Source of the DNA: Spiroplasma diminutum CUAS-1
GTDB taxonomy: Bacteria; Bacillota_I; Bacilli_A; Mycoplasmatales; Mycoplasmataceae
Direction of reading: 5' to 3'
DNA length: 64,000 nt
NCBI RefSeq assembly: GCF_000439455.1
Contig: NC_021833.1
Span: forward strand, 124,001 to 188,000
A program made the position numbers and the translations under genes. The notes beneath the pieces were generated by a model that was given only the letters and a program-made list of their open reading frames with translations, searched no databases and was not told where the DNA came from. Shown one piece after another: positions 38,084-47,803 of this stretch (positions within the stretch are counted from its first letter, which is position 1; the number at the start of each line of letters is the position of its first letter).

Positions 38084-38112
38084 AAAATCAGCCACATTGG
38101 TTGATTTTTTAA
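38082..38112 (+). terminator. Terminator of ferritin-like gene
   Basis: AAAAATCA and TGATTTTT form the stem, with inner CC/GG pairs around ACATT, followed by T. Confidence 0.75.
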
Positions 38113-38164
38113 TTGTCTAAAAATGTTATAATAATAAAAGTGTAATTATAAGGGAGATAAGTCT

Positions 38165-41100
38165 ATGTCAAATATTATTGAAAATAATGGAACAAAAGAA
38201 ATAATTTTAGATTTCTCCTTTTTACAAAATGTACAATTTAAAGAAAATCCAGCCACTTTAGATCAAATAATAGAGCAACTTGATATTAAAGGAGTTAAAA
38301 CTTGCCAAGAATTTCAAAATTTTTTAAAAAACTCATTAGCCAAAAAATCTTTCATTTGCTTATTGGATGATAAAACACATCAATTTTCTAAAAAAGATAA
38401 AAGCAAAACTGCTTATAATGGAATTATAAGAATGGAATTAGATTCAAAGAATCAATCATTATTACCAGAAGGAACCTATTTAGGATTTTATGTAAATATT
38501 GATACAAAAAATGCGGGACTTACAATTAGTTCAATTTTTATGACTAGATTAAAAAGTGCTGCTCAGGAATTTGAAACAATTATTAAAGAATCACATATAT
38601 TGATAATAAGAAATCAGGGACAAATAAAAGATGATGAAATAATTAGAAGGAATGTATTAAACTCTTCTAATATAGGAGAAATTGGTAGACTACTTTCAAC
38701 ATTTGAAGAAGAAAAAGAAAAATGACTCAATTTTTTGGAATTTAGTGAGAATTTATTAAAATTGGAAAGAAAAAAATCTCTTCCTTATCTTGGAGTAAGT
38801 ATCTTAAAAGTTATCAAAATAGATAAAATTCATTTTAATAATCATCTTATTCAATTAGAAGTAAAAGAATTAAAATCAAAAACTTTTAAATATCTATTTT
38901 CAAATTCAGAAAACATATTGAGAAGTAACGATATACCATTTGAATTTTCAAATATTATAACTTTAGATTTATTAGTTGATGATTTAGAAAAAGTAAACAA
39001 AATTAAAAAAACAAAGGAATTATCTTTAGTTCCAATAAAAATGAATAAAAACATTATTACAACTCATGATTTAATTAAAAATATTCATGATATTTTTGAT
39101 TTTAATTTTGAAAGAACAAACGATTTTAAAAATGTAATAAATCTTGGAACAATGCTTGGCACAAGTGATGAAGAAATGAATTTTCAAACTTATTGAATAA
39201 AAAATAATAAAACTATTTTTTTAGGAGAAAATAAAGAACTTGAATATTTATTAAAAAAGAATCCAAATGAGATGCAGGAATGAAAAATTAAAAAAATGAG
39301 TTTTGAAATTGAACAAGATTTTGATCAAGCAATTTTCAACTTGCAAAATAATATTGATTCTCTTGCAACTGGATATATTGCATATACAGGAATAGGTGAA
39401 GATGTTCTAATTGAAAGATATAAACAAGTTATAAAAAAAATATCAGATGGTAATACAAAAAATCCGTACTTAGTAAATTATTTATTTAATACAAGACTTG
39501 TTGAACTCTCTGAACTCTCAGATGATATTTCAATTGAAGATAAAGATTTTGAATTTAATTTAAATTCAGAACAAAAAGAGGCAGTTAGAAAAGCTATTAA
39601 TACAAAAGATATTTTTATTTTACAAGGTCCACCAGGTACTGGTAAGACACAAGTAATTTGTGAAATTATTAATCAATTATCAAAACTGAATAGAAAAATT
39701 TTATTATCAAGTCAAAATCACGAAGCTATTAAAAATGTTGTTGATAGATTACCAATAGATCCTAATTTAAATAAAATTAGATTAACAAATCAAATTAATT
39801 TAAAAACTCAAGTTTCAAATAATTATTCACCTGATAGAGTACTTTACAATTATTATAAAGCAATTGGTAAAAGAGCATTTGATGATATGAAAAATGATGA
39901 AAGTTCTATCAAAGAATTCCAAGATTATAAAAATAATTTAGAGCAGCTTATTAATGCTAATAAAAGTTTTCATCAAAACAATAGTCAAATAAGAGAAATT
40001 CAAGATAAAATTAATAATCTTAATGAAAAAATTGTTTCATTAAAACAAAACAATCTGGATAAAATAAAACATAAAAATTATTTAAAAGAAGAATTAATAA
40101 ATATTGAAAACTTAATTGAAGCATTAAACACAAAGGAATTTGAAGCGATTATAAATGTATCTGATAAACTATTAGATTGCTATAAACAATCTATTGAATT
40201 TGATTTAAACAATTTTGTATATACATATTTAAACTTTGAACCAAGTGATTTTTCAAATATATATCTTTTAATTAAAGAAATTGCTAATGAAATTTATTTT
40301 AAAAATAATATATTTTTAGAAATAAAAGACTCAAAAAATAATGTAAATAAATATAAAAGAACTGCTGAATTTGAATTAGCAGAAAAAGAAGAAAGTAAAA
40401 TTTTAGGTTTGGAGCAATTACTCAAAACAGATTTGAAATTGAATGAACTTAATAAAATTTTTGACTTTTTCACTTTAAGTTTAAAGAATTTGAAGTTAGA
40501 AATTGAAATTGATTTACAAAAAGAAAATGAAAATCAATATTCTGATGTAGAACTTTCAACTTTTGAAATTCATAAAAATGAATTGACTGTTACAAAAAAC
40601 AATTTAAGTGAAAATGCTGGATCTAATTCAAAAGAATTAAGAGAGCTTATAAAAATTGTGAATAATAAATTTAATTTAAATTTAGGATTAACTGATATTG
40701 ATTTAGAAGAACAAGTGAAAGTAGAATTAAGTAATCTTGAAAATAAATTAAAAAATAGTAAAGAAAGAAAAGAAAACTTTTCTGAAATATATACTCAATT
40801 AATTACCTATTTGAATAATAATTATAAGATTACAAGCAATTTTGAAGAAGAATTAGCATCAAAAGATTTTTCAGGACAAATGTTTAAAGATAGTCAAAGA
40901 TATATCCAAACTATTTTAGATAATTTAGTTAATGTCTATTCTATGACTTTAACTTCTACAAATTTATTTAAGTTTAATAAAGATAACTTTGCATCAAAAT
41001 TAGGATTAGAAGAATTGAATCTTAGAAATATGGATGTAGATGTAGTAATTATTGACGAAGCTTCAAAAGCAACAATACTTGAAATCTTGATGCCACTAAT

Positions 41101-42025
41101 TTATGGAAAATCTCTAATTCTTGTGGGGGACTATAGACAACTTCCACCAATTTTAAAATTACAACCTGGAGATGTTGATGAAGTAAATAAATATTTTAAC
41201 AAAGATTATAATTATAATTTAATGTATGAACTTTTAGATGAATCTGCATTTAAAAAATTAATTTCTGCAAAAAATAAATCCATTACTTCTATATTAAAAA
41301 CTCAATACAGAAGTCACGAACAAATAATGGAAATCGTTAATAAATTTTATGATGGTTATTTAAAAGTTGAACCACAAGTAAGTGATCAAAAGAGACATGA
41401 TCTTGTTATTACAAATGCTAATCATAAAGAAATAATTAACTCAAGAAGTTCAGTCTACTGAGTAGACTCAACATATAATACAAATGACGAAATTAATTAT
41501 GAGCAAGGTGAAGATTTTTCAACTAGTTTATTTAATGAATTAGAAATTAGTTTAACAAAAAAACTTTTAGAAAAAATTGACAAAGAGGTTTTAAATAAAA
41601 AATCAAAACTAAGACCAAGTGTTGCAATAATAAGTTTTTATGGATTACATGTTAATAAATTAAAAAGAGAAATTAAAATCAGTAAATTCAAAAATATAGA
41701 TATTACAATAAATACAGTTGATGATTTTCAAGGTAAAGAAGCAGATTACGTGCTAGTTAATATGGTGAGAAATCCAGAAAAACTTTCAACAAAATCAGGG
41801 AGAGATTTTCTAAAAAAATATGAAAGAATAAATGTTGCTTTTTCAAGAGCTAGAGAATTATTAATAATAATTGGTGCTCAAAGAGCTGTTACAGATATAA
41901 CAGTAAAAATACCAACTATTGAAGATCCTAATGTTTCAAATAGTCATCAAGTATATGCTGATATAATTTCAAAATTAGATTTTGAGAATTGTTTATTGGA
42001 AGCAAAAGAAATAATGGAGGAATAA
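38165..42025 (+). CDS. Very large SF1 (UPF1-type) helicase with coiled-coil insert
   Basis: The 1286-residue protein has an unrecognised N-terminal region (about 1-440), then Walker A GPPGTGKT at 488-495. A Glu/Asn/Lys-rich, probably coiled-coil insert of about 420 residues follows. Walker B/motif II is DEAS at 964-967, then GDYRQLPPIL (motif III), TQYRSHEQI (motif IV region), VDDFQGKEADYVL (motif V) and ERINVAFSRARE (motif VI). All catalytic motifs are present, so it should hydrolyse ATP and move on RNA or single-stranded DNA. DEA-S and QLPP are UPF1/Dna2-type features. It heads a five-gene run with 2-9 base gaps. The ribosome binding site is AAGGGAG. Confidence 0.88.
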
Positions 42026-42028
42026 AAA

Positions 42029-44296
42029 ATGATATTTAATAAAATAGAAATTCTATATGATAAAGTCTATTTACCTTTAAAAATTAAATATTCAGAAATC
42101 AGAAAACCAACGTTTATGGAATTTTTGATTTTATTAATAATTATTGATCATCCTTCAAAAGAAAAGAATATTAAAATAATTCTTAAAGAAGATTTTAATA
42201 TTTCAAATCAAGTTTTATTTGAAAGAGCTTTAAGAGATTTAATAAACTTTAAAGTAGTAGAAGTAAATAAAACTAAAGCTGGGATTGGCTTACTAAATAT
42301 GAATACGTCAATTGATAACTTTATAATTGATCAAAAAATTAAAGAGGAATTTAAAAAGGGAACCTATACAATTTCTCATGATAATAAATTTCAAGATGTT
42401 AAATATTTTAGTGACCCAGTATTAAATTCGAGTGAAATTTTAAAAGACATTAACTGAAAAAAAAGAATAAATGAATTAAAATTTAGTCATAAAATAGAAA
42501 TTGAAAAAAATTTCTCTATTGAAAAGGGAACAATTATTAATTCTGCTAAAGATTTTGTTAAGAATAAGCCAGAAATTTTTGGTGATGATGCTTTTCTAAA
42601 AGATCTTATCTTAGAAGATCAAGAATCAATTAGTGATATAAATAACATTAATCGATTTTTAAAAACAGAATCAATAGCAATAGAAGGATGGCTTGAAATT
42701 TTTGAAAATGGAGCTTTCAAATTAAAAACTGAAGATAAATCGTTTGATGACTATTTAAGAAAAAGACCAAATATTTCTTTGGAAATATTAAAAAGTGTTG
42801 CTATTAAATATGATGAAAAAATTAAGAAAATATTTAGACCAGAAAGTTCAAATTTTAATGAAAATGATTTTATATCTTCACCAGATTTAATATCAAATTT
42901 AAATATTAAAACAAATTATAATTTACTACTTGTTAATGACCAGTTTATAGTAAATGATAATGAATTTATAAAAAACAAGGACTTAGCAAAAAACATTGAA
43001 ATTATCATATTTTATAATTCAAAGAGAAATAATAAAATTATTAATTCAATTGATAATAAATTGATTTTCTATGTTGGTTATATTGAAAATTTAATATTAC
43101 AGCAAAATACTTTTATGTACTTTGATTCAAAGAATACTTTAAATGGATTTTTAATTGCAAATAAGAATATTGAAAATATTGATATAAATATACCTGTTGT
43201 ATATTCATTTAAAAATAATTCAAATCAAATCAAATTATCAAATTTATTTGAAAATAATATAAAAGAAGCAGTAGATACTTTTGAAGAATGTTTGCTTGAC
43301 AGTGATTACGAAACTGCAATGAATATTTATTTTGTTTTACAAAGAATAGGATTAGAAGCAGAGGTATCTTTAACTCTTACAAATTATTTAGCAAAAACAA
43401 TTGATAGCGGGACAAACTATTCAAATATGAGGGATTACTTAATAAAATTTGAAGATAGAAACTTGATATTAATTTTAGAAAAAGTTGTAAAAGATCTCAT
43501 TATAAAAATTTCAAAGGATAGAACAGATGATGAACTTTTTGAAATTATTAGTAATTATAAATTTATAGACTCAAAAAATATCTTAGAAATATTCAATAAA
43601 ATTGAAATAAAAGATAATATTGAAAATATTTATAGAATAAATAATTTCTTATCAAAAATGTCAATTGATGGATGAAAATTCAATATTAGAAACTCGCTAA
43701 TTATATTAACAAATTATTTTAAAAATAATAATAGATCAGAAATGTTTGAGGAAACTAAATATAATTCAGATGTTTGAGCACAAAATGCAAATACCCTAAA
43801 TATTATTGGAAGAATAACAAAAGAACTTTATATGTCTAACTATAAATTTGTAGAGGATAACTATAAAATAATGTTAGATTCAATTATAGATTTAATTGGT
43901 AATTCATTAGATATAAACAATTTTGAAAGTTATCTTATAAATTTATCAGATTCTTTAATTGATTTTTACAAAAATTACTATAAATATAAAAGTGAACAGT
44001 TTGCAACAATAACAGAAGATATGATTGAATATAAAATACAGCTATTAGCAGGAAATTATATAAATAAAATTGAAGATAAACTTAATGATTTAATAGATAA
44101 AAATATTTTAAATATGCCAATTGAGTTAAAATTAGAATGAATTAAAAATGTAAAAAATGATTCTAAGCAAGTGGATAAAATTTTAAAGGGTAATGAAAAA
44201 AACTATAGAAAAGCATTAAACATTATATTTGGTAAAAAGAAAGAATATAGTAGTTCTGATTTAACTAAATATATAAATATTTTTGGAGGAAAATAA
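42029..44296 (+). CDS. Uncharacterised 755-aa protein of the helicase/AAA+ operon
   Basis: No family is recognised. The protein is soluble, predicted mostly alpha-helical, and begins three bases after the helicase stop with a GGAGG site. The first 80 residues contain a helical segment (FMEFLILLIIIDHPS) that looks buried rather than membrane-spanning and could be a winged-helix-like fold (NISNQVLFERALRDLINFKVVEV). The region around 290-390 has alternating hydrophobic strands. The C-terminal third is helical. Four TGA codons are Trp. Its position implies that it works with the helicase and AAA+ protein. Confidence 0.75.
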
Positions 44297-44298
44297 TT

Positions 44299-45396
44299 AT
44301 GAGTATGACAGCTGAAGAAATTTTAATAAATTGTGAAAAACAATTTTCATTTATTAAAAAAGATATAGATGTTTTAATAAAATATATAAAAGAATTATTA
44401 GTACATTGTAATCAAATTGATAATTCAGGGTTTTATCAAAATCAAATAAATGAATTATTAGAGAAAATTAATAAAGAACAAATTGATTTGGCTCAAAATA
44501 CTTATGAAAGAGAATTATCATCTGATACTCATGTAGCAATTGAAACATATCATGAAATTCAAAGATATGCAGAAAGAAAAAGAGAAAGTATTGCTGATTT
44601 TAAAGCTCAAGTATATAGTTTTAAAAGAGATGTTTTAATTAAAGAACAAGAAAATATATTAAAGTCCTTAGATAAAAATAGTTTTGATGATTTAGAAATA
44701 GTTAGAAATGACTTAATTGCAAAGTATAAAGACGACGAAGACAAAATACTAATAAGAAATATTTTTGATCAAAATCATCATTATCTAATAAACTTCAGAG
44801 GAGAAAAACTATATAATTTCATTTTTGAAAAATTGAAACATATAAAAGCATCCAATAAATCTATATCAAAAGAAATAATTGCAAAATCAATAGATTTATA
44901 TAGTGAGGATAGAGATCTTGTTGAAGCTATTAGAGATGAATCTCAATTGTTTATGAATTTAGATAATAATGGAAATTTTCAAGAAAATGCAAAGCAGTAT
45001 TTTATTAAGTCATCTAAATTAGCAGAACAAGAGGCTGTCAGAAAAGATAATGTAATTAAGATAGTGAAAGCCATTAGAGAAGTTGGATATGTTGTAAATG
45101 AAGAAAATATAAGAAGAATTCAAGAAAAAAATATGATTCTAATTCACGGAGAAAAACTAACAGGCGAAACAGCAGACTTTGCTGTAAAATTAGATGGAAG
45201 TTTTGTTTATAATTGAGAAGGCTTTGAAGGTCACGAACATGATGAAGATGCACAAGCTTTTCTTAATAAGCTTAAAGAATTTAACTTGCATTCAAGTGAC
45301 GAATTCAATAAACAATATAGAGAACCAAAATATATTGCAAAAAATAAGCAAATATTTAAAAATAAAAATAATTCAAATTCAAATTCAAATAGATAG
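44299..45396 (+). CDS. Uncharacterised coiled-coil protein of the helicase/AAA+ operon
   Basis: The 365-residue protein is highly charged and helical. Residues 1-130 and 150-260 look like coiled coil; a compact globular segment follows (GYVVNEENIRRI...IHGEKLTGETADFAVKLDGSFVYNWEGFEGHEHDEDAQAFLNKL), and the tail is Asn/Ser-rich (NNSNSNSNR). The FEGHEHDEDA region has clustered His and acidic residues that could bind metal. It is two bases downstream of the preceding gene. A role as an adaptor or substrate receptor for the AAA+ protein is inference. Confidence 0.75.
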
Positions 45397-45405
45397 GTGA
45401 GAAAT

Positions 45406-47214
45406 ATGAGTGTAAAAAGAGAATTAAATCAGTTAAAAAATTTAATTGGAATTAAAAAGGCAGTTATAATTGAAGGAAATATAGACGATATTTATGAATT
45501 CGAGGGAAAATATATAAATATCCATGAAATTGTAATGAATATATTTGAGCAAAAAAAATATTCAGATAAATTTATTTTTGATCAAAATTCAGGGCTAAAA
45601 GGTAAAAAGATATCTAATTTAATTTTGACCTCAAATGATTCTCATCATGGAGAATCAGTTGCAAATGAATTTGATGATTTATTTGGTGGTGGAGATAATG
45701 ATAAACCAAATAAAGATGAATTAAAACTAAAAAAACCAATTGAATTTTTTTCAATACTTAATAAAAACATTAATAGAGAAGATGAAAGAAAAATTGGTTT
45801 TGTTGCCGATTATACAAATTTTGTTTTCAGTGATCAAGGTTTAGATGTTGATGATAGAGCTGTTCTTACAGAATTCTCAAAAACTTTAAAGGAATCAAAT
45901 TTTTCTATAGCAAGAATTGATGAATTAACAAATTGTATTATATTTTTAACTAAAAAAATTAATCAATTACCGCCAAGTTTATATTTAGATAATCCTGAAA
46001 TTATTATTTCAACTTTGCCTAAACCAAGTAGAGAAGAAAGAAAGCAATTTTTATCTACAATTAAATCAAGAATACAAGTAACAGATATTTCAACAGAATT
46101 TGATAACATTATTGATGCCACTGAGGGGTGAACTTTAAAAGAATTATCTCATTTTGCAAAATTTAGCTGTAATTTTGAAACTCCTATCACTTTCAATAAG
46201 ATGTTTAACATATATAATTATGGTGAAAAAACTTCTCCATGAGAAGAATTAAGCTACGATAAAATGTTAACAATTAAGAATGAACTATCTTCAAAAGTAA
46301 TCGGACAAGATGAAGCAGTTGAAAAAGTATCAAAAGTAATTTATAAAGCATATACAGGTTTAACTGGAATTACTTATTCAGCAAAAAGAAGTAAACCAAA
46401 AGGTACCTTATTTTTTGTTGGACCAACTGGAACTGGTAAAACAGAACTTGCAAAAGCAATTACTACTTTCTTGTTTAACGATGAAGCAAATCTTATTCGA
46501 TTTGATATGTCTGAATATGGACAAGATAATGCTGATCAAAAATTAATTGGAGCACCTCCAGGATATGTTGGATTTGAAGGTGGAGGTCAATTAACAAATT
46601 CAGTAAAGGAAAAACCTTTTTCTGTAATTCTTTTTGATGAAATTGAAAAAGCAAGTCCAAAAATATTTGATAAGTTTTTACAAATATTAGAGGATGGAAG
46701 ACTGACAGATAATACTGGACAAACAGTAAGTTTTAGTGAATCATTTATTATTTTTACATCAAATATTGGTGCAGCTGAAGTTAATCCAAATCAAAGTACG
46801 CAAGAAGTTCATAATGAATTTATTAAAAAGGTTCAAGAGCATTTTACAAATGAATTAAACAGACCAGAACTTTTGGGAAGATTTGGAAATAATATAGTTC
46901 CTTTTAATTTTATTAAAGATTTAAGTTTAAAATCAAAAATAATTCGTCAAAAAGTTAAACCAATTCAAATAGCAATTTATGAAAAATATAAAGCAGAATT
47001 ACACATTGATTTAAATGATCAAAATATTATTGGAATAATGCTTAAAAATGCTGATGAAAGAAGAGGAGGAAGAGATGTATTGAACTCTCTTGAAACTAAT
47101 TTAGTAGATCCTTTATCTGAATTCATTTTTGAAAACTTAAAAAATATAAAACCTGGAACAAAGATTTTAACTTCAACTAGTGAAGGAAAAATAGTATTTA
47201 ACATAAATGGCTAA
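45406..47214 (+). CDS. ClpB-like AAA+ ATPase with degenerate N-terminal half
   Basis: The 602-residue protein has one complete AAA+ module of the ClpA/B second-domain type: VIGQDEAVEKVSKVIYKA, Walker A GPTGTGKT at 339-346, GAPPGYVGFEGGGQLT (pore loop), Walker B ILFDEIEKA with Asp 411/Glu 412, sensor FTSNIG, arginine finger region ELLGRF and a C-terminal small domain. The first 290 residues look like a second AAA+ fold without Walker A; they carry GNIDDIYEF and a Gly/Asp-rich loop (DDLFGGGDND). I prefer ATG 45406 (AGGTGAG site) over the GTG nine bases earlier. It should act as an unfoldase or remodeller. It overlaps the radical SAM gene by 8 bases. Confidence 0.9.
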
Positions 47215-47803
47215 TTTAAATCTTAGCAAGTTTTTGATGAACAGTGAAATAGAAGGTCCGGGAATTAGATTTATTATTTGATTTCAAGGATGTAACATTG
47301 GATGCAAGGGTTGTTCTAATCAAGAACAACTTTCATTAGAGAAAAAAATGTTTATGCCCAATGAATTTATATATGAGAAGATTTTAGAAGCAAAAGAAAT
47401 ATTTAATATTGAAGGTGTAACATTAATTGGAGGAGAACCATTTCTTCAACCTGATGGATTAAAAGAACTTGTTATTTGATGTCAAAATAACGATTTAACA
47501 GTAATATGTTTTACAGGATACATTTATGAACAAATGATTGAAGAACATAAGGAAATCTTAGAAAATATAGATATTTTAATTGATGGACCTTTTATTATGA
47601 AACTTTTAGATAAAAATAGAAGACTGATAGGAAGTAAAAATCAAAGAGTTATAAAAATCACAGATAAATATAAAGATTGTGATTATTTTGAACAACCACA
47701 CTCAGAAGTTGAAATACAACTTTATAATGATAGATTATCGATGAATGGTGATGGTGTTATATTTGATAATGAAAATGGAGAATTTAATTTTAAAATAAAG
47801 TAG
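47207..47803 (+). CDS. NrdG-like radical SAM enzyme
   Basis: The 198-residue protein has the radical SAM cluster motif CNIGCKGC near residues 29-36 and the GGEP motif (LIGGEPFLQP) that binds the methionine amine of SAM. Size and layout match activating enzymes of anaerobic ribonucleotide reductase and pyruvate formate-lyase. No glycyl-radical partner is encoded in the window. It overlaps the AAA+ gene by 8 bases, so it is translated with it and probably serves that operon. The first codons are inside the previous gene; the ATG at 47207 is the only plausible start before the FQGCN motif. Confidence 0.85.

Follow-up and report, generated by a model that had tools for sequence, protein, structure and literature searches.

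What task could unite a helicase, a protein-unfolding motor and a radical enzyme in a single block of genes? This question is raised by positions 38165-47803 of the window analysed here, a stretch of 64,000 nucleotides from Spiroplasma diminutum CUAS-1 that corresponds to bases 124001-188000 of the source genome (945,296 bases in one contig, approximately 25% G+C, TGA read as tryptophan, i.e. code 4). Translation with table 4 yields exactly five long open reading frames in this region, all on the + strand and arranged in tandem, separated by 3, 2 and 9 bases and with an 8-base overlap between genes 4 and 5, precisely the layout given in a first-pass annotation of the sequence. Open reading frames from table 11 were misleading, with many fragments, and were ruled out since the genome reads TGA as tryptophan, a trait that the annotation had missed. 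The genes encode a superfamily 1 (SF1) helicase of the UPF1/SMUBP2 type (gene 1, 38165..42025, 1286 amino acids [aa]), a protein with an N-terminal domain apparently related to the N-terminus of the Mokosh protein MkoB (gene 2, 42029..44296, 755 aa), a protein with a helical/coiled-coil part and a small C-terminal alpha/beta domain (gene 3, 44299..45396, 365 aa), an AAA+ protein of the ClpB/ClpC D2 type (gene 4, 45406..47214, 602 aa from its ATG, or 3 aa more from a GTG at 45397) and a radical S-adenosylmethionine (SAM) enzyme of the NrdG/PFL-activase type (gene 5, 47207..47803, 198 aa). Together they constitute one uncharacterised machine that is probably related to an anti-phage defence system. 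Our favoured reading, held with slightly more confidence than doubt, is that of one jointly inherited nucleic-acid surveillance system with kinship to Mokosh, though not a member of it.

The joint inheritance of the five genes is most evident outside the mollicutes. A tblastn search of 72,556 plasmid records with gene 4 turned up the complete block, its order unchanged, on plasmids of Polaromonas (L021), Acinetobacter (L022), Moellerella (L023), Leisingera (L024) and Photobacterium (L029). In separate searches with genes 3 and 1, gene 3, which as a marker is the most specific of the five, is present in ten plasmid records, including six near-identical Moellerella plasmids. The search with gene 1 ranks these same ten records first (nine match 80% or more of its length), followed only by five more distant helicases. 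All five genes also occur on an IMG/VR contig (L193), behind genes for a large serine recombinase and a helix-turn-helix protein, and several of the plasmid copies have integrases, transposases, ArdA or restriction-related genes in their vicinity. Such mobile carriage holds for the relatives; the copy in the window occupies a conserved chromosomal site. The proposal of the first-pass annotation that the block is one unit is thus borne out by the gene order kept across distant phyla and by co-occurrence on plasmids, and the scattered homologues that it had named as counter-evidence were looked for and not found.

Between the window and proteobacteria, gene 4 is the best conserved at 36-40% identity, ahead of gene 5 (32-38%), gene 1 (25-30%), gene 3 (20-29%) and gene 2 (18-25%). 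Judged by these identities, the copies are old. In profile comparisons of the window type with the proteobacterial type, genes 1, 3, 4 and 5 are orthologous (98.5-100%, wrong-gene controls 0.1%), and gene 2 matches over approximately 130 N-terminal residues only (77%, E 2e-5). None of 399 sampled Pseudomonadota genomes contained gene 3, of which distant versions may escape the search, though all known carriers tested were recovered. AAA+ relatives appeared in seven of the sampled Pseudomonadota genomes at 1e-85, one of which (G106, a partial match) may be ClpB, and complete genomes of Escherichia coli gave no copy, with Clp proteins only or nothing. When genome contigs were scanned with the AAA+ alignment, ClpB/ClpC proteins swamped the matches listed, so that the counts are meaningless and only L070-L077 were useful.

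The link to defence comes in part from genes 1 and 2. Gene 1 belongs to the UPF1/SMUBP2/Sen1 group of SF1 helicases (Pfam AAA_11/AAA_12; best PDB matches Sen1 and SMUBP-2), with a helicase core at approximately residues 460-1256 that contains a long insert and is preceded by an N-terminal part of about 450 aa. All helicase motifs are intact (GPPGTGKT, DEAS, GDYRQLPP, QYRSH, FQGKE, SRAR), and GPPGTGKT, DEA/VS and SRA are kept by orthologues throughout. Over the helicase part, gene 1 matches the PADLOC model of MkoA at 3.3e-93, and in the helicase tree the proteobacterial members of the five-gene block (hereafter type I) stand beside MkoA with weak support (67/81). Gene 2 and gene 3 match no family on their own in family-level profile searches, as the annotation had stated in calling them unknowns. 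What it did not recognise was that gene 1 is MkoA-like and that the N-terminal domain of the gene 2 family resembles the N-terminus of MkoB (hhalign 93%, E 3e-7). The block shares with type I Mokosh an MkoA-related SF1 helicase, which is directly followed by a protein whose N-terminal domain, as judged across the gene 2 family, resembles that of MkoB. The helicases nearest to gene 1 that lack genes 3-5 are the MkoA proteins of two-gene MkoA-MkoB loci on cyanobacterial plasmids, and one cyanobacterial MkoA-MkoB locus sits among toxin-antitoxin and type I restriction genes.

The block also differs from Mokosh. A kinase domain is found on the MkoA of L177 and L179, whereas the window gene 1 has no Pkinase match to a Ser/Thr kinase. 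MkoB carries a PLD nuclease (L177, L178, L190), while gene 2 has either a PIN domain or none, with no PLDc match in the window protein or the five proteobacterial ones. Further, type I Mokosh consists of two genes, to which the five-gene block adds the co-conserved gene 3, AAA+ and radical SAM genes; at the two-gene Mokosh loci examined, genes 3-5 are not present alongside. With no kinase, no PLD nuclease and five genes, the block is, by the features tested, not a Mokosh system. Its proteobacterial versions of gene 2 end in a PIN nuclease (PF13638/PIN_4, 1e-19 to 1e-24 in four of the five and 3e-6 in Leisingera), a region that, in the alignment, is missing from every gene 2 of the Spiroplasma type (the genus of the window and its relatives), including the window copy; the annotation had not noticed that this protein lacks a nuclease domain that its relatives possess. 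The antiviral role that had been suggested there gains a link to defence from the MkoA/MkoB relation, the proteobacterial PIN domain and the carriage on plasmids and beside a recombinase, while the function itself is one that we infer. An anti-phage function is suggested by the relation to Mokosh together with mobile carriage, and RNA would be the target if the UPF1-type relatives of the helicase and the PIN domain are taken as a guide.

Genes 4 and 5 form the truly unusual part of the set. Family searches agreed with the initial assignment of an SF1 helicase, a ClpB-like AAA+ protein and a radical SAM enzyme. Like ClpB/ClpC, gene 4 has an active-looking D2-type AAA+ domain with Walker A and B motifs, a pore loop (GYVG) and an arginine finger, but it has neither the N nor the M domain of ClpB, and D1 is replaced by a domain without Walker A. 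It contains a single Walker A motif, and the ClpB model is matched only at 553-852 of 853. Across orthologues the motifs GPTGxGKTE, FDEIEKA, the GYVG pore loop and RPELL(G/N)R are kept, with single conservative exceptions. The N-terminal part of about 280 aa, in which no Walker A motif occurs, might be a degenerate AAA domain, which is a guess; its match to FtsH is weak (E 0.008, controls 0.3-0.5), and Pfam searches at high E-value gave no identification. One genome (G016, L066:8266-11965) also carries two adjacent Clp-like AAA+ genes of 606 and 634 aa, relatives of gene 4, away from its five-gene locus. Gene 5 comes closest to the NrdG and PFL activase models, at 104 bits and hence below the curated NrdG cut-off of 126. 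Its CxxxCxxC cluster motif is intact in the window and conserved in orthologues, where C29, C33 and C36 are invariant; matches to the prokaryotic viperin pVip are weak (1e-8).

The AAA+/radical SAM pair is also found in other settings. We distinguish the five-gene block (type I) from four-gene mollicute loci (type II) and from loci in which the AAA+ and radical SAM genes lie beside helicases of the DUF4011, Hhe or PDC-S37 type (type III). Type III, with members in Rhizobium, Bradyrhizobium and Burkholderia, has the same AAA+ family, usually the same radical SAM family and an SF1 helicase nearby, but its AAA+ proteins fall into a separate clade of the tree (100/99), its helicases are distant and very large, and no gene 2 or gene 3 was detected; in Clostridia, the AAA+ gene lies beside kinase, FHA and PP2C phosphatase genes. 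Type II (L062-L065) shares the order helicase, a protein of 460-700 aa, one of 330 aa and AAA+, with homology to the block that is clear for genes 1 and 4, weak for gene 3 and marginal only for gene 2 in profile comparison, but it has no radical SAM gene. Two type II loci lie in genomes (G001, G003) that also carry the five-gene set. In the AAA+ tree, type II is nested inside type I (94/91), and the radical SAM gene has probably been lost from these four-gene loci. By the topology of this tree, the five-gene set looks younger than the association of the AAA+ protein with radical SAM. Among known defence systems, Dodola DolB and PDC-M37B (PADLOC) match gene 4 through the Clp-type AAA+ core alone and have different partners. 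Neither the five-gene set, the type III set nor the AAA+/radical SAM module was found described in the searchable literature, to which few subscription papers belong, in keeping with the first impression that the combination was not a recognised one.

A candidate substrate for gene 5 emerged from a comparison of 49 AAA+ proteins from the two groups in which the radical SAM gene occurs with the four from loci without it. Of 77 columns invariant in the former, 72 are kept by all four of the latter, and only P192 and G276 are lost in all four type II proteins (numbering of the 605-residue gene 4 with GTG start). G276 sits just before D2, and its codon lies at 46222..46224 on the + strand in NIYNYGEKTSPWE (residue 273 from the ATG, 276 from the GTG). 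The PF13353 gene is wholly absent from two of the four genomes with loci lacking radical SAM, while the other two hold a complete five-gene set elsewhere. G276 is the obvious site to test because NrdG-type enzymes abstract hydrogen from a glycine, and we regard it as a candidate site of radical SAM modification, i.e. a lead and no proof. Caution is called for, as some loci of the third group showed no radical SAM gene.

Under the surveillance reading, the UPF1-like gene 1 protein would load on RNA (or RNA:DNA) that is foreign or abnormal, and the gene 2 protein, akin to MkoB, would ride on the helicase as an exchangeable effector subunit that ends in a PIN ribonuclease in proteobacteria. In the lineage of the window, bound RNA would be blocked or remodelled rather than cut by gene 2, which is the likelier option because the nuclease is absent. 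A ClpB-type hexamer of gene 4 might thread or remodel a partner (gene 2, gene 3 or a ribosome- or RNA-bound protein) and so switch or reset the complex, with gene 3 as a possible adaptor. The NrdG-like gene 5 would modify a partner, most simply gene 4 at the conserved glycine before D2, and might thereby license or tune the unfoldase or its partner. Which protein threads and which modifies what is, in this scheme, as we infer it. A more daring version, tentative and by our estimate rather improbable, would see here a new class of immune machine, whose Clp-type unfoldase, once armed or licensed by a radical SAM enzyme (through a radical, or a modification made by one, on a glycine shortly ahead of D2), drives a UPF1-like helicase with an exchangeable ribonuclease subunit, the unfoldase/radical pair being portable across helicase-based systems and the window copy domesticated throughout the genus. 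If true, a protein-unfolding motor and radical chemistry would have been added to helicase-nuclease defence, a coupling that we did not find described, and a defence-type cassette would have become fixed across a genus of small genomes. One glycine would then be a sharp, testable target for an orphan NrdG-like enzyme, and NrdG-like genes beside Clp-like genes could be annotated accordingly instead of as 'activases' or 'hypothetical'.

Several observations weigh against the surveillance reading. The relation to MkoB is confined to the N-terminal domain of gene 2, the PADLOC MkoB model is matched by only two of 29 gene 2 proteins (best 1.1e-5, in Acinetobacter) and not by the window protein, and Spiroplasma-type gene 2 sequences alone reach 2-8% against MkoB in hhalign, which is below significance. 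The window gene 2 is without a recognisable nuclease, and Foldseek, the structure check that had been recommended, gave no confident match for genes 2 and 3, only helical-repeat or chance matches. In its own genus the block looks like a fixed chromosomal locus (gene 3 in 20 of 20 genomes), which is unusual for a defence cassette. As to G276, the pattern comes from a single clade lacking radical SAM, i.e. four proteins on a long branch, and other clades lose 0-5 of the invariant columns through divergence. In the predicted structure of the window gene 2 (mean predicted local distance difference test score 88.5), long beta strands and a beginning that resembles a helix-turn-helix give way to a mixed alpha/beta middle and an all-helical second half. 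Gene 2 C-termini were not identified by Pfam at high E-value; that of L193 ends in RKTRNSLIHP, which by eye resembles the RNxxxH motif of HEPN domains and is not recognised by Pfam. The C-terminal alpha/beta domain of gene 3, which follows a long helical/coiled-coil part, has a conserved LDG...Y...D.

Distribution within the mollicutes bears on the best surviving alternative, namely that a mobile defence cassette was domesticated for housekeeping, such as RNA or ribonucleoprotein quality control or the rescue of stalled translation, and lost its nuclease on taming. Every one of the 20 genomes of the genus has an orthologue of gene 4, as do members of other genera in the family, and at the genus loci read the other four genes adjoin it in the same order, with broken frames in one genome (G013); related genera show this five-gene order too. 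Gene 3 occurs in 38 of 60 family genomes (20/20 in the own genus, 13/14 in genus g8, 3/3 in genus g12 and one each in genera g6 and g9) and is absent from seven other genera, many with very small genomes. The block is flanked by leuS or folD in most genomes of the genus, which points to vertical descent. All five genes are under purifying selection, judging from ratios of non-synonymous to synonymous substitution (dN/dS) against four relatives that are lowest in genes 4 and 5 (0.04-0.11), intermediate in genes 1 and 3 (0.12-0.23) and highest in gene 2 (0.17-0.27). Universal presence in the genus next to absence from whole genera of small genomes, the constant neighbours, this strong selection and the lack of PIN from all Spiroplasma-type gene 2 proteins would suit a housekeeping role. 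On the other hand, orthologues elsewhere are plasmid-borne, other members of the same family live without the set, and gene 2 evolves fastest of the five, by dN/dS (up to 0.27) as well as by its identity to proteobacterial copies, as expected of a part under conflict. We consider domestication for housekeeping the less likely reading, yet, given fixation in the genus and the missing PIN domain, a turn to quality control of cellular RNA or ribosomes is a real possibility for the lineage of the window.

The block is not always undisturbed in these genomes. Some genomes of genus g8 have insertions between genes 3 and 4, and in one g8 genome (G059) gene 3 (C1:114914-116008) and gene 4 (172396-174210) lie approximately 56 kb apart, both open; insertion or rearrangement can thus break the block while these two genes stay open. 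In G013 (L043), genes 1, 2 and 5 are split into pieces, and since the adjoining ferritin-like gene is shortened too, sequencing error is as likely as decay, and a fault of assembly is possible.

A toxin-antitoxin-like function in plasmid maintenance or the killing of competitors, in which the PIN protein would be the toxin and the remaining genes its control, would agree with the copies on plasmids and with the frequency of PIN domains in toxins. No classical antitoxin gene was seen, and gene 3 or gene 4 could keep the PIN protein inactive. Nevertheless, nine kilobases and three enzymes driven by nucleotides or SAM are far more than befits such a pair, and a chromosomal lineage retains all five genes without PIN, so that we regard this function as very unlikely. 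Still less probable, and largely refuted, is a role in anaerobic metabolism in which gene 5 activates a glycyl-radical enzyme and its neighbours are accessory. Gene 5 is indeed nearest to the NrdG and PFL activase models and of NrdG-type size and motifs, but the block holds neither an NrdD partner nor any glycyl-radical domain. The NrdD of the genome is encoded elsewhere (L030:926-3195, genome approximately 531,900-534,100) beside an NrdG-like gene of its own, which makes gene 5 a second NrdG-like protein, and the sole PF01228 match in the genome falls at that locus. Moreover, the set is kept in Acinetobacter and Polaromonas, which are strict aerobes. Activation of a free-standing glycyl-radical enzyme, one of the options first considered, is accordingly unlikely. 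A chance neighbourhood or loose cluster without shared function, for which we found no point in favour, is refuted by the same gene order in Mollicutes, three classes of Proteobacteria and the IMG/VR contig and by the co-occurrence on plasmids.

The signals upstream of the block were read by eye. The upstream region (38084..38164, + strand) contains the presumed terminator of a ferritin-like gene, an extended -10-like element TGTTATAAT with TATAAT at 38127-38132 and the ribosome-binding site of gene 1. The terminator is an A/T-rich hairpin with a T run at approximately 38084-38110 that has too few G-C pairs for the terminator scan. Both elements had been described before and were seen again; promoter-like matches in the region are no commoner than in shuffled sequences (105 vs 106.5), so the promoter itself is no evidence. 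The claim that no terminator interrupts the block held up, the scan of the + strand showing no terminator-like site within it. Shine-Dalgarno-like stretches precede the ATG of gene 1 (GGGAG), genes 2 and 3 (GGAGG) and gene 4 (AGGTGAG). In the window, the ferritin-like gene lies before the block, and after it come a membrane protein gene, likewise on the + strand, and folD, on the other strand. In several relatives the membrane gene is absent or folD follows directly after gene 5 (e.g. L036), and the block therefore ends at gene 5.

Some plasmid copies have further genes of related kinds next to them. On the Acinetobacter plasmid pNDM1_010055, the block is followed at once by genes for a small AAA ATPase, another radical SAM protein of 328 aa and a hypothetical protein (L022:14679-16661), which are possibly another unit. 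On the Photobacterium plasmid, two adjoining radical SAM genes lie just upstream of the block on the opposite strand (L029:1398-3466).

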